From Nanobdellota archaeon (GTDB lineage: Archaea > Nanobdellota > Nanobdellia > Pacearchaeales > GW2011-AR1), in contig JANLHN010000013.1 of the NCBI GenBank assembly GCA_024654505.1, positions 1 to 60,224 of the forward strand: 60,224 nucleotides of DNA, read 5' to 3'. Positions 20,418 through 55,344 of this stretch are shown here, piece by piece (the stretch's first letter is position 1; every line of letters begins with the position of its first letter). The position numbers were made by a program, and so were the translations under genes. The notes under the pieces are model-generated. The model was not told where the DNA came from. It made no database searches and saw nothing but the letters and a program-made list of their open reading frames with translations.

Positions 20418-21659
20418 TTATCTCCAGCTAACCTTTTTATTTAAAACAATATAAATTATTGAAACAGTCCACCAGAACCCAAAAAGAATTGCAAAAAAGA
20501 GAAAATAAAGAGCAATAGTCAAGGGAATTCCTTTAACCTTCCCAACCTTCTTTGTAGCAAATTTCATATAAATCCCCAAGAGCACTACAAAAAATAAAAA
20601 GAATATAATTATTGGATTTGAAAATATGTGGAAGAGAACTCTTTCAACGGCATAACTTCCAACACTAAATAAACTAGCAAAATCAAAATTAACTTTATTT
20701 AAAAATAACAGTTCAGATTTTAAATTAAGTAAGGTATCAATAACAAGATAATTAATTACAAAAACAGAAAAGAAAATGCTAATCCAAGCAATTGGGAGAA
20801 CAAAAAGACCCAAGTCTCCATACTTTGGAGAAAAAATCCCTTTGTATTTCCAAGTATTTCTCATAAGCCCTGCATACCATCGTCTTCGTTGAATAGTCAG
20901 AGCCTTAATCTTATTTGGTGCGATAGTATATGCTGGAGATTCGGGAGAATATTCTATAGTATATCCATGATATTGTATCCTTAAGGACATTTCTAAATCT
21001 TCAGTGATATTGCCCTCATCATACCCCCCATATTTATCAAAGAATGTCTTCCTATATGCAGAAAAAGCTCCGGGAGTAACATGAACTGCATTAACTGAAG
21101 CAAAGGCCTTTCGGATAAATAATCCAAACAAATACTCTGCCTGTTGAATTCTTTGGAGAACACCTCTAGGTTGATAGATAAGCATCGAAGGTGAAACAGA
21201 CATTACTTCTGGATTCTTAAAGTATCTAACCATTTCTCTAACACTATGTGGTGCAACAAAGGTATCAGCATCCATAGAAAAGATTATTTCTCCTTTACAT
21301 TTTTTTAAAGCAAAATTTAGGGTCGTTCCCTTTCCACCATTCGGTTTTGTATAAACTTTAACCAGCTTAGATTTACATTTCCTGGCAAGTTCCAATGTTC
21401 TGTCTTTACTACCATCATCAACAACAAGAATCTCAAGTTTTCCCTTCGGATAATCTGAAGCCACAATAGAATTTATAGTTTTAACAATAGACTTTTCTTC
21501 ATTATATGCAGGGATTATTATACTCACTAGAGGAAGCTCGTCATCAGTAAACAGCATCTTCTCCTTTTTCTTCTCAGAATGATACCCTAAAACATAAAAT
21601 GTAGTAGCAACTAAACCAATATATACAGAAATATAAAGCATAATTAGAACAAAGCTCAT
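20418..21659 (-). CDS. Processive family-2 glycosyltransferase, membrane-bound
   Basis: 413 residues. One N-terminal helix, a cytoplasmic GT2 domain with DDGSKDRT, DADT, the acceptor ED (NITEDLEMSLRIQ) and QRRRW, then three or four C-terminal helices. The QxxRW motif marks processive enzymes such as cellulose, hyaluronan or poly-GlcNAc synthases. It probably makes a cell-surface polysaccharide; the sugar is unknown. Translation is coupled to scpB (TAATG), with a strong GGGGAGG ribosome-binding sequence inside the end of scpB. Confidence 0.88.
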   Translation of the reverse strand: MSFVLIMLYISVYIGLVATTFYVLGYHSEKKKEKMLFTDDELPLVSIIIPAYNEEKSIVKTINSIVASDYPKGKLEILVVDDGSKDRTLELARKCKSKLVKVYTKPNGGKGTTLNFALKKCKGEIIFSMDADTFVAPHSVREMVRYFKNPEVMSVSPSMLIYQPRGVLQRIQQAEYLFGLFIRKAFASVNAVHVTPGAFSAYRKTFFDKYGGYDEGNITEDLEMSLRIQYHGYTIEYSPESPAYTIAPNKIKALTIQRRRWYAGLMRNTWKYKGIFSPKYGDLGLFVLPIAWISIFFSVFVINYLVIDTLLNLKSELLFLNKVNFDFASLFSVGSYAVERVLFHIFSNPIIIFFLFFVVLLGIYMKFATKKVGKVKGIPLTIALYFLFFAILFGFWWTVSIIYIVLNKKVSWR

Positions 21660-22255
21660 TATTCCTCCCCTTCAACCTTTTTTTTTAAAGGGTCTCTTTC
21701 ATTGCGCTGTTTCTCAGCAGACTTCTCCACATACTCTGGAGAAGCCACATTAAAATAATCATAAAACTCATCAGATAAAGACAAATCGAAAGTCCTACCA
21801 GCTTTCTTCGCAACAACAAGCCGAAGTTCTCTAAATTTCCTTATATGGTCATAAGATTTATTCCCTCGAATTCTAATAAGAACTGACTGTTTGATTGGTT
21901 GTTTTTTAGCAATGATTGCCAAAGTTTCCTGTTCAGATTTAGTAAATTCAACACTACCTGTTGCAAGTTTGTTAATCAAGTAATTATACTTCTCTGCAAC
22001 ATCCATTTTCCAAGAACTACCACGATTAACAAGCCGAAGAACCCCTGAAGAATATTTTTTCTCAAGCCGACTCAAAACCTCCCGAAGCATGATAGGATTA
22101 ACATCGGTTAACATAATCAACTCTTGTAATTCCAAAAATCTTCCAGAAATGAATAGCGCAGCCTCTACCTTCTCAAGAGATTCTTTTTCCTTTTCCTCAA
22201 ATTCTGTCTCTATCTCTTCCGCAGTCGCCCCAGTAATAATCTTCTCCTCTTCCAT
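21659..22255 (-). CDS. scpB: Chromosome segregation protein ScpB
   Basis: 198 residues from the ATG at 22255. Tandem winged-helix domains: VEAALFISGRFLELQELIMLTDVNP and TKSEQETLAIIAKKQPIKQSVLIRIRG are typical of ScpB, which with ScpA closes the SMC ring for chromosome compaction. An in-frame codon at 22327 would add a residue run unlike the family, so the short start is preferred. smc and scpA are not in this window. It is coupled to the glycosyltransferase, an unexpected pairing. Confidence 0.87.
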   Translation of the reverse strand: MEEEKIITGATAEEIETEFEEKEKESLEKVEAALFISGRFLELQELIMLTDVNPIMLREVLSRLEKKYSSGVLRLVNRGSSWKMDVAEKYNYLINKLATGSVEFTKSEQETLAIIAKKQPIKQSVLIRIRGNKSYDHIRKFRELRLVVAKKAGRTFDLSLSDEFYDYFNVASPEYVEKSAEKQRNERDPLKKKVEGEE

Positions 22256-22512
22256 GTTTAGAAGAAGATTAAGGAGTTTTAAAAGTTTGTTAACACTCAA
22301 AAAGTTAAAAAGAAGTGTAAAATACACGAACTAACTTTCGCCAATACAAAAGTCAATTAGCACTTCCCGACAATTAAGTAAATTCAAAACAACCCTATTA
22401 GATTAAATATTCCAAAATAAAAACATCTCTCTAAACATCGAAAAGTTTTGGGAATTACTTAATTTCCTATGTGTGGAAAATCTGAGCGAAGCCAGATTTG
22501 AAACCTCAACTT

Positions 22513-22565
22513 TTATTCACTTATAGCAAACCTCAATATCCCTCAGACACTATAAATTCTATCAA
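22513..22565 (-). repeat. Displaced copy of the aRF1 gene 3' end
   Basis: 22513-22539 is identical to 23394-23420, the last 27 bases of the aRF1 gene including its stop. The match continues in the same register to 22565/23446 with mismatches, so the final 17 codons of aRF1 are recognisable here, one now a stop. It starts at the radical SAM stop codon. The two copies bracket the radical SAM gene as direct repeats. Confidence 0.85.
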
Positions 22566-23392
22566 GGACTAATAAATGTTCTTCGAAGATTCCTATCATT
22601 CTTTTCCTTATTTACTTTACTCAACCATTTTTTTAATATATCTTTATCTAAAAGGCTACCCAAACTAATTCTTCCAGTTGAACTTTCTTGAGAGGGTATA
22701 AAAACAGAAAGGTCTGAATCAATAAAAAAATAGGCTTTATTCCTAGAAGATTTTGGAGATACCAAGATATTTATGTCTCTAGAATATTTTTTAACAACAT
22801 CCCTACTTCCTTCTTTAAATTCCTTATTTGTAACAGCCAACCCCTTTTTATTTTTTTCAGAATTTGTTGTAGAAATCTTAAAAAATTGATAAATCTTCCA
22901 TTGATCTACTTTATTCCTTTTCAGAATCTTTCCAATTTTTTCGAGTTTGTCTATATTATCTTTTGTTACAACAGTTCCAACCCTTATTTTTGGCCCATTA
23001 TTCTCTTTATAATATTGAAGTATATTTAGTACATTTTTTTTATTATTTTTACCTCTATAACTTTGATTATTAGCAAAATCAAAAGGCAAGCCCAAAATAC
23101 TTACATCTTTACTTATAATCTCTTTATACTTTGGGAAAAGGTCTCCATTTGTATCTAAATATACTTTCATTTTTTGTTTCTTTATAGATTGGATAATTTT
23201 GGGAAAGTCTTTTCTTAGAAGAGGTTCTCCACCAGTAATCACAATCCCTTCAACATCTTTTGAAGAAAGAAATTTAATGGCTTTTATGAGATCTTTTGTG
23301 CTAGATTCTTTTGAAGATTTTCTATCATAACAATACTTACAATTATAATTACATTGTGAGGTAATCTTGATAAAAACTATTTTGGGCCACAT
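22562..23392 (-). CDS. Radical SAM enzyme, viperin-like, inserted in the aRF1 3' end
   Basis: 276 residues from the ATG at 23392, one base after the aRF1 stop; a GTG at 23401 is possible. CNYNCKYC (Cys14, 18, 21) is the radical SAM cluster and ITGGEPLL binds SAM. There are no further cysteines, so no SPASM or auxiliary cluster. The C-terminal half has WKIYQF, TNKEF, SPKSSRNKAYFFIDSD, which resemble conserved blocks of viperin (WKxFQ, GDEEF, PESN...M..SY). Viperins make 3'-deoxy-3',4'-didehydro nucleotides against viruses. A generic small radical SAM role is also possible. The gene is A-rich and Lys/Asn-heavy and is bounded by direct repeats, suggesting acquisition. Confidence 0.8.
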   Translation of the reverse strand: MWPKIVFIKITSQCNYNCKYCYDRKSSKESSTKDLIKAIKFLSSKDVEGIVITGGEPLLRKDFPKIIQSIKKQKMKVYLDTNGDLFPKYKEIISKDVSILGLPFDFANNQSYRGKNNKKNVLNILQYYKENNGPKIRVGTVVTKDNIDKLEKIGKILKRNKVDQWKIYQFFKISTTNSEKNKKGLAVTNKEFKEGSRDVVKKYSRDINILVSPKSSRNKAYFFIDSDLSVFIPSQESSTGRISLGSLLDKDILKKWLSKVNKEKNDRNLRRTFISP

Positions 23393-23393
23393 C

Positions 23394-24488
23394 TTATTCA
23401 CTTATAGCAAACCTCAATATTCCACCGACACCACCAAGACTATCAAACTGAACCCCTTGAGCAGTTTCATTCGTAACAATAAAAACTTCTGCAGAAGACT
23501 CACTAGCCAATTTTTCCAATCTCTTAATCTCTTTTCTATCTAAGGACTTAGATATAATTAATTTACCTACAGCACCACGACTCAATCGGTTCTCCACCTC
23601 TGGCACACCATATGTTGCCTTATCAGGATCTCTTCCAAGTTTTTCAAAAAATTCGTCTAAAATCTTCTTCTGTTTTGTAATCTCTTGCTCGGCCAACAAA
23701 TCTTGAGATAATTCCACCAACTCTTGCAAACCATGCATCCCTGTTCCCCCCAGGTCTTTTACCCCAATAACCTTCTCTTTTAAAGCAGTGACCAATTGTC
23801 CCTGTTCTAAAAATTCATCTTTACTTGGAATAGGCCCACCAACCAAGATTCCCTTAAGCTTTTTATTTCCCCAAAAAATTTCTTTTACCGCATCAGCAAC
23901 TCTCTTAAAAAATTCCTTAGTCATAGACTCCCTTATTCTTGCAAAACGCTGACTCGATTGTCCTCCTGCTCTTGTCTTACCTGGAATTCCCGAAGTCATA
24001 TTTCTTAACAATTTAATATGTTTCCCATCAAGAACTCCAATTGAAGCCTCATTCCTCTCGATTATAATCAGTCCATAAACCTCCTCAGTTTCAAGCATTT
24101 CCTTCAAAGGCTCCAAAACAAATGTTTGGTCACAACGATAAATTTTAACTTTCATTTTCTTTGGAGGTTCAAAGGCCCAAATTCTCAAATCTTCTTGTCC
24201 TTCTACGCCAGAAACATTACCAGAAAAAACAGCCAACCCGTTTGGAGGCGTTCGACCAAGTTCCTTCAATTTTCTTATGGCTTTCTCAAGGGCATTGGTA
24301 ACATTCTTTCTAGTTCCCGTAGACTTGATGTTCGTCGCTGTCCCCTTCTCTTCTTCAAGTTGTTTAGTAGTCTGAGTCAAAGTCGCTCCTGCTGGAACAA
24401 AAACAGTAATCAACTCGGTGTGTCTACCACGATAACTTTCAAGTTCCTCAACCAATTCCTCAAGCTCAAGTTTTTCCTTTTCTTCCAT
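23394..24488 (-). CDS. prf1: Peptide chain release factor aRF1
   Basis: 364 residues from the ATG at 24488. The stop-codon recognition motif is NIKS (TATNIKSTGTRKNV), and GGQSSQRFARIRE carries the catalytic GGQ that enters the peptidyl transferase centre; its Gln is the target of HemK2/Mtq2 methylation. The protein is shorter than typical aRF1 (about 410), mainly in the last domain, which ends QGVQFDSLGGVGGILRFAISE-like. The final 27 bases are repeated 881 bases downstream, across the radical SAM gene. The start overlaps the valS end region by short spacing. Confidence 0.93.
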   Translation of the reverse strand: MEEKEKLELEELVEELESYRGRHTELITVFVPAGATLTQTTKQLEEEKGTATNIKSTGTRKNVTNALEKAIRKLKELGRTPPNGLAVFSGNVSGVEGQEDLRIWAFEPPKKMKVKIYRCDQTFVLEPLKEMLETEEVYGLIIIERNEASIGVLDGKHIKLLRNMTSGIPGKTRAGGQSSQRFARIRESMTKEFFKRVADAVKEIFWGNKKLKGILVGGPIPSKDEFLEQGQLVTALKEKVIGVKDLGGTGMHGLQELVELSQDLLAEQEITKQKKILDEFFEKLGRDPDKATYGVPEVENRLSRGAVGKLIISKSLDRKEIKRLEKLASESSAEVFIVTNETAQGVQFDSLGGVGGILRFAISE

Positions 24489-52124: not shown

Positions 52125-52265
52125 TTTAAATACCCTAAATCCTCTCCACTTTTACATATCAGGTGCGGAAGGTCCAAACGACCCGGTAGCAAAAGTAACA
52201 TCAGAGATGTTTCATTGAGAAAATTTCCTCGGAAATTCTCTAAACTCCTGAACCTAAATTATAAT
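52125..52265 (+). promoter_or_regulatory. Promoter and folded leader of rps2
   Basis: A TATA box TTTAAATA (52125-52132) puts the start near 52154-52158. From there to the rps2 ATG the RNA can fold into a closed junction: outer helix TCAGG/CCTGA (52159-52163, 52247-52251), hairpin GGTC/GACC (52171-52174, 52180-52183), hairpin AACATC/GATGTT (52197-52202, 52206-52211), and a long hairpin GAGAA-TTTCC/GGAAA-TTCTC (52217-52240). It could be a binding site for uS2 or a ligand. Confidence 0.55.
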
Positions 52266-54975: not shown

Positions 54976-55273
54976 ATAAATTATTGCTAAAGCAAACTAG
55001 TTGCTCTTAACAGAGCAAAGATATTTCTTAGATTAATTAATGAACAACTCAATCTTTGAGGACTTCACAAACTTTTCTGATTTATATCTGTGAACTTCAG
55101 TTCGCCTAAATTGCCGACGGCAAGTAAATTTATTAAATTATATTAAGCAACAAAAATTGATCATCCAGCTTCATTTTGTCGTCGGTGCAAGAGACTCTTG
55201 CACCGTAAAACATACGGGCCTGTAGTCTAAAGTTGCGAACGAGTCGCATCGATGAGACAACATGCCCAAACAA
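54976..55273 (+). other. 16S-tRNA spacer with stem-loops
   Basis: No gene is visible. Stem-loops include TTGCTCT/AGAGCAA (55001-55007, 55012-55018), TTGCC/GGCAA (55111-55115, 55119-55123), and a perfect 9-bp stem GGTGCAAGA/TCTTGCACC (55184-55192, 55196-55204). The last is followed by a copy of the tRNA-Ala 5' end (55216-55229). Confidence 0.6.
55216..55229 (+). repeat. Copy of the first 14 bases of tRNA-Ala
   Basis: GGGCCTGTAGTCTA here is identical to 55274-55287, the acceptor strand and D-arm start of the tRNA-Ala. No tRNA body follows; instead 55216-55267 can close as an imperfect hairpin (GGGC...GCCC, TGT/ACA, GTCT/AGAC). Confidence 0.75.
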
Positions 55274-55344
55274 GGGCCTGTAGTCTAGTGGTATAATACC
55301 TCGCTTGCACCGAGGATACCCGCGTTCGATTCGCGGCAGGTCCA
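55274..55344 (+). tRNA. tRNA-Ala (anticodon TGC)
   Basis: Acceptor GGGCCTG/CAGGTCC with G3-U70, anticodon stem CCTCG/CGAGG with loop CTTGCAC (anticodon TGC), T stem CCGCG/CGCGG with loop TTCGATT, discriminator A. tRNA-Ala(TGC) between 16S and 23S is the usual archaeal location. No CCA is encoded. Confidence 0.95.

Follow-up and report, generated by a model that had tools for sequence, protein, structure and literature searches.

A one-gene radical SAM segment between direct repeats of the prf1 3′ end in a Nanobdellota archaeon

Integron cassettes usually consist of one gene and one recombination site, with tight boundaries and toxin–antitoxin or defence-like cargo, and the recombinase which moves them is encoded elsewhere. 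CIMEs are att-flanked, integrase-less derivatives of ICEs and IMEs; they are larger, and recognisable parent elements occupy the same site. The p-dif (Xer) modules of Acinetobacter plasmids contain one or two genes, often a toxin–antitoxin pair, and their recombinase is also encoded elsewhere (PMC13141974). Among 68 thaumarchaeal integrated elements, 14 use the 3′-distal part of protein-coding genes and in at least one described element the gene end is rebuilt, while archaeal att sites have a median length near 45 bp (PMC6563490). In the literature searched, no release-factor gene has been reported as an integration site. How defence genes come and go in archaea with very small genomes is poorly known.

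Here, we describe a radical SAM gene located at the 3′ end of prf1, which encodes the archaeal peptide chain release factor 1 (aRF1), in a 60,224-nucleotide contig of a Nanobdellota archaeon (GCA_024654505.1, JANLHN010000013.1, positions 1 to 60,224), hereafter the window. Its genome is designated G000, and coordinates between 21659 and 24488 are window positions (Table 1). The preliminary description of this DNA had claimed that the last 27 bases of the aRF1 gene recur perfectly and that the match extends in register. Both statements were confirmed: the two copies, 881 nt apart, align over 53 nt with 85% identity and share a perfect 27-base core (22513-22539 and 23394-23420), the right half of the pair being identical and the left half decayed, unlike the pairs of relatives described below. 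The claim that the insert is almost exactly the radical SAM gene was equally borne out. On the minus strand, the prf1 stop (23394-23396) is followed by a single base (23393) and then by the radical SAM ATG (23390-23392), while the TGA stop of this gene (22562-22564) falls inside the distal repeat; the gene thus exactly fills the space between the repeats.

Table 1. Features of the prf1 locus and of a second target gene in the window genome
Feature	Position	Strand	Basis or remark
prf1 (aRF1), target gene	23394..24488	-	intact 364-aa ORF; Pfam eRF1_1, eRF1_2, eRF1_3
Proximal direct-repeat copy, final 53 nt of prf1	23394..23446	-	sequence comparison
Cargo gene, 276-aa viperin-like radical SAM protein	22562..23392	-	Pfam Radical_SAM 7.8e-19; PADLOC pVip 2.3e-31
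Distal direct-repeat copy, prf1 3′ end	22513..22565	-	perfect over the 27 nt that end at the stop codon; the 25 nt on the left diverged and with an in-frame stop
scpB, conserved right-hand neighbour of prf1, marks the empty site in relatives	21659..22255	-	Pfam SMC_ScpB 4.4e-28
Second target gene, 160-aa conserved protein	C2:120854-121336		end repeated 57/64, 1671 nt on

When the 3′ ends of all 651 ORFs of G000, assembled from stretches (620 kb), were tested for nearby copies, the prf1 tail scored 29/30 and control 30-mers internal to the same genes at most 22/30, a match far above chance. No further copy of the distal repeat was found elsewhere in G000. A dispersed palindromic repeat of about 45 nt, AAATCTGGCTTCGCTCAGATTTTCCACA..AATTAAGTAA, starts 12 nt past the distal prf1 tail (22455-22500) and has other G000 copies at C2:57200, C6:4074 and C1:9458. 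Another stretch of this genome, C2:31954-38796, is GC-rich, holds several long direct repeats and is unlike the rest of the genome.

The prf1 gene has orthologues in 167 of the 181 genomes of the family (E ≤ 1e-50) and scpB follows it on the same strand in 76 of 110 relatives, at 150 bp or less in 16 of these 76. Empty prf1 sites, which the preliminary description had proposed to look for, were found in the genus and in the family, for example in G005 (gap of 4 bp), G021 (gap of 2 bp) and G002. Since prf1 adjoins scpB in relatives with a gap down to 2 bp, the radical SAM segment is an insertion. In other congeners this junction is occupied by different genes, in G012, for instance, by an OMP-decarboxylase-like gene and in G003 by phosphotransferase-like and GtrA-like genes (all named by eye); it is therefore a hotspot. 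In prf1 of G014 (C18), G022, G030, G040 and G041, which lies in a longer open frame (479-877 aa), homology is broken at about residues 178-181, probably by an intein near the GGQ region.

The inserted interval encodes a single gene, the radical SAM gene, and no recombinase. With a GC content of 27.6%, as against a G000 mean of 35.6%, this gene ranks in the bottom 0.5% of 591 genes, which indicates that it is foreign. Its product shares with prokaryotic viperins (pVip) 1) a match to the PADLOC pVip models over nearly its full length, 2) a CxxxCxxC radical SAM motif, with C14, C18 and C21 invariant among relatives, and 3) viperin (5vsl) as top fold match of its predicted structure (pLDDT 70; E 3.3e-8). 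It differs from them in the low identity of this fold match (21%), in its NCBIfam score, viperin_w_prok being the best of 88 models but at 99.8 bits under its cut-off of 180, and in the segment LGLPFD which stands where the viperin-type SCDSF segment would be. The protein is hence viperin-like and not a viperin. Only two relatives were found at E ≤ 1e-25 among 378 genomes of the class, in G005 (41% identity) and G418 (30%), both with the same model-match behaviour, and none in genome_contigs or viral_contigs. The G005 relative (L062, 6714-7556) lies at a junction other than prf1, and no repeats were found around it; it adjoins a nucleoside 2-deoxyribosyltransferase-like gene (by eye). The cargo gene is probably co-transcribed with prf1 and its function is probably antiviral.

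Copies of their own tails were sought downstream of 110 prf1 genes, and 6 of the 110, that of G000 included, have a distal copy with one or two genes enclosed; other cargo between prf1-tail repeats, a further expectation of the preliminary description, thus exists in relatives. Besides the viperin-like gene of G000, the enclosed genes are an unknown ORF and a DUF2283 gene in G073, an ABC_trans_CmpB-family membrane protein and a DUF2283 gene in G164, an orphan 139-aa ORF in G015, and HEPN-like and nucleotidyltransferase (MNT) genes in G034, on the opposite strand, and in G137, on the same strand. The name HEPN was given by eye, the two proteins having no Pfam family and weak PADLOC matches to a HEPN-containing model. 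Although G034 and G137 belong to different families, their HEPN and MNT proteins are homologous (39% and 34% identity), and the opposite orientations of the two pairs imply that at least the orientation events differ. In two of the six cases the repeat is short (17-19 nt; 18/19 in G015, 16/17 in G137); these cases are weaker and G137 alone is unconvincing. A profile (PSSM) of the tail peptide matched the plus strand of six genomes and the reverse strand of none. That the arrangement is an assembly artefact is hardly credible: the assemblies are of metagenome type and the G015 and G034 loci lie near contig ends, but the copies are diverged, the cargoes differ, the same pattern is present in several independent genomes, and the G000 locus lies inside a 60-kb contig.

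Since G000 has a comparable cassette at another of its genes, prf1 is not the sole target. The 64-bp repeat of the end of the 160-aa conserved gene encloses a VTT-domain gene and a pair of PRC-barrel genes on the opposite strand; in the congeners examined, orthologues of this gene have neither the adjoining cargo genes nor the tail repeat. Similarly, the end of a thioredoxin gene of the congener G015 is repeated (67/72) around a single NUDIX gene, and all five differences between the tails fall at third codon positions. After removal of paralogues and shared tails, these two genes are the only non-prf1 cases in these genomes. Several repeated ends proved ordinary: tandem paralogues at C2:40.9-42.8 kb and permease-like paralogues on C9 of G000, where further cases were intergenic repeats, and the ribosomal stalk proteins L10/L12 of G015 (named by eye). 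In G017, 320 kb were scanned and the only repeated end is that of an HsdS-like gene (named by eye), also ordinary.

Collectively, these data make it somewhat more probable than an even chance that small non-autonomous cassettes insert site-specifically into gene 3′ ends, the gene being rebuilt and the recombinase supplied from elsewhere. According to this mechanism, the segment described here would be an 881-bp cassette made of one gene and one copy of the target-gene end, which may pass through a circular form and would enter the chromosome by recombination in the final ~50 nt of prf1. This would join the body of prf1 to the cassette-borne tail and keep the gene intact, while the native tail would remain past the cargo and form the distal repeat. 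The recombinase would act in trans; candidates in these genomes are XerA-type tyrosine recombinases and integrases belonging to other elements. The preliminary description had likewise proposed an element that enters a gene 3′ end and rebuilds the gene: the empty junctions, the other cargoes and the intact prf1 agree with it, while its suggestion of a novel route does not stand as such, 3′-end integration being documented (PMC6563490). What is unusual is the one-gene size, the missing recombinase, the several targets per genome and the defence-type nature of some cargo. No smaller unit of gene gain of this type was seen here than such a one-gene insertion, which spares an essential gene; the repeated gene end that it leaves as a scar offers a search target in any genome.

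The divergence of the tails bears on the direction of exchange. Codon positions were compared in the prf1 tail pairs of G034, G073, G164, G090, G151 and G015, of which those of G090 and G151 are cargo-free. Out of 52 mismatches, 30 are at codon position 3 (P = 3e-4 against one third), and 30 codon changes are synonymous as against 10 nonsynonymous. Judged from these sequences, both tails look selected, as ends of working genes would be. The distal copy had been described as decayed, which holds for G000, where it translates as IYSV*GILRFAISE* with an in-frame stop, but not for the relatives, whose mostly synonymous differences do not reflect simple decay. This pattern is what the import of a gene end from a second lineage would leave if the native end stayed in place; the distal copy is probably native and the proximal copy the incoming one. 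The G000 tails are identical over 27 nt and the native one is thus indistinguishable there. The same synonymous bias would be expected of orthologous ends from two lineages brought together by homologous recombination with a relative's DNA, with one crossover in the target gene and an illegitimate join of the other end immediately ahead of the native tail; this would also require no fixed site, in keeping with the several genes affected. We regard this course of events as distinctly improbable. The repeats of the six clear cargo cases, whose cassettes of 0.9-1.7 kb are in different genera, measure 46-72 nt and thus all begin within this range before the stop, whereas random joining along the gene would give a wide spread in which longer repeats are common; longer ones are uncommon, the exception being G031, in which a cargo-free duplicated prf1 stretch starts ~112 nt before the stop, outside the usual range. 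Furthermore, no donor neighbourhood was found, the two cargo relatives among the 378 class genomes and the absence of any in genome_contigs and viral_contigs offering none. The observed repeat lengths are close to the median of archaeal att sites, 45 bp (PMC6563490), which supports cassette insertion.

The absence of an integrase, noted from the window, holds downstream of prf1 in the relatives. No tyrosine-recombinase (PF00589-type) ORF was found downstream of the 110 prf1 genes with a profile derived from these genomes' own recombinases, and no larger integrase-bearing element was found at prf1 in the 110 genomes, 6 kb being inspected in most. Elsewhere in these incomplete genomes, PF00589 matches number three in G000, one (Xer-like) in G137 and none in G034. 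Two degenerate patterns of the prf1 tail, used to search viral_contigs for a free or viral copy, gave no match. The segment could alternatively be what is left of a conventional integrative element (a provirus, an IME or a plasmid) after loss of its integrase and backbone, in a CIME-like attL-cargo-attR arrangement. Integrase-bearing archaeal elements do target the 3′ ends of protein-coding genes (PMC6563490) and most of these genomes, G000 with its three matches included, have integrase genes elsewhere. We nevertheless consider such a remnant unlikely, as neither whole nor partial integrases follow the 110 prf1 genes, the ATG and stop of the G000 cargo touch the repeats with no leftover sequence, and repeated decay would not obviously yield clear cases that all span 0.9-1.7 kb across genera. 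Cassette insertion with a recombinase acting in trans has difficulties of its own: several target genes per genome would call for several site specificities, and no recombinase was found in the cassettes, nor any PF00589 match in G034. A Xer-type enzyme is an economical guess for G137 and would not alone explain several unrelated target ends. More tentatively, a trans-acting system might use the last ~50-70 coding bases of many host genes as sites and insert free single-gene or toxin–antitoxin circles carrying a functional gene end, in an integron-like manner without attI or attC; we hold this to be possible but doubtful. A recombinase, if found, could explain how single defence genes and toxin–antitoxin pairs spread without visible mobile-element machinery.

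The locus has features in common with several known systems. Like the thaumarchaeal 3′-end elements, the cassettes are inserted at a gene end which element sequence would restore, with direct repeats of similar length and empty sites; unlike them, they measure 0.9-1.7 kb, hold one to a few genes without a recombinase, and target prf1, thioredoxin and the 160-aa conserved gene. Integrase-bearing proviruses, IMEs and ICEs also have flanking repeats, a rebuilt gene and empty sites, but the internal recombinase gene is missing here. CIMEs share the att-like flanking repeats, the lack of an integrase and a content limited to cargo; they are larger, and no parent element was seen at prf1 (110 genomes, 6 kb in most). 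With integron cassettes, the common features are a single gene with its site, tight gene limits, similar cargo and a recombinase which would be encoded elsewhere, whereas the site is here the end of a host protein gene and not attC, with no arrays and no attI or integron integrase identified; at the G000 prf1 end, no strong dyad with the sequence past the stop was found. The p-dif modules also comprise one or two genes, often toxin–antitoxin, with the recombinase encoded elsewhere, but have Xer-site flanks on plasmids in place of chromosomal gene-end direct repeats. No dif-like site was established in the junctions compared: that of G000 is without a long inverted match and a near-palindrome occurs only at the G073 proximal end. 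Casposons contain cas1 and terminal inverted repeats, while the G000 insert is a single gene without cas1. The likeness to integron cassettes, p-dif modules and CIMEs is one of working principle, while for each class at least one defining feature was not established.

Tail duplication and cargo gain may be separable, which counts against cassette insertion. The prf1 tail is duplicated without cargo in G014, G090, G151 and G169, and the repeats alone are consequently weaker proof of it. Immediately after prf1, G169 (L121) has an exact tandem duplication of 112 bp, each unit of which joins the prf1 tail to a 67-bp spacer. These cargo-free cases would accord with a hairpin-linked duplication of the gene end (tail, inverted copy, tail) having come first, the cargo entering the spacer later or independently, as would the inverted part-tail copy which starts exactly at the first base past the stop in G090, G169, G151 and G073, and the end duplications of similar layout at G000 tRNA genes. 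This order of events nonetheless appears very improbable, given that the G000 cargo fills the inter-repeat space with zero spacer, that no inverted copy follows the stop at the prf1 genes of G000, G164, G137 and G015, and that synonymous divergence of the copies is not expected from local duplication.

The tRNA-flanking units are treated as a feature separate from the cassettes, and they keep this duplication-first alternative alive. Of the 42 tRNA genes of G000, 33 lie within 500 bp of a copy (at least 13 nt) of their own 3′ or 5′ end, as against 5/583 control ORF ends per side; the corresponding counts are 21/37 in G015 and 2/23 in G017. No Rfam family was found for these units in the stretches tested. 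On the 3′ side, the order is tRNA end, inverted T-arm, hairpin GAGCAATTCGCTT...GCAAATTGCGA and copy of the tRNA end, and in G014 the same hairpin also separates prf1 from its tail copy. Units on the 5′ side fold into hairpins of ~59 nt that combine the 5′ strand of the tRNA with its complementary sequence around AAAGTAAC...GTTTC; tRNA-Ala(TGC) of the window (55274-55344) has its 5′ unit at ~55216-55273. The core of the 5′ hairpin, AAAGTAACNNCNNAGNNGTTTC, is also present at sites not adjoining tRNA genes, in several cases immediately upstream of a protein gene, at 52192-52213 of the window and at C8:23089 and C2:210700, 274418, 318212 and 272796(-) of G000.
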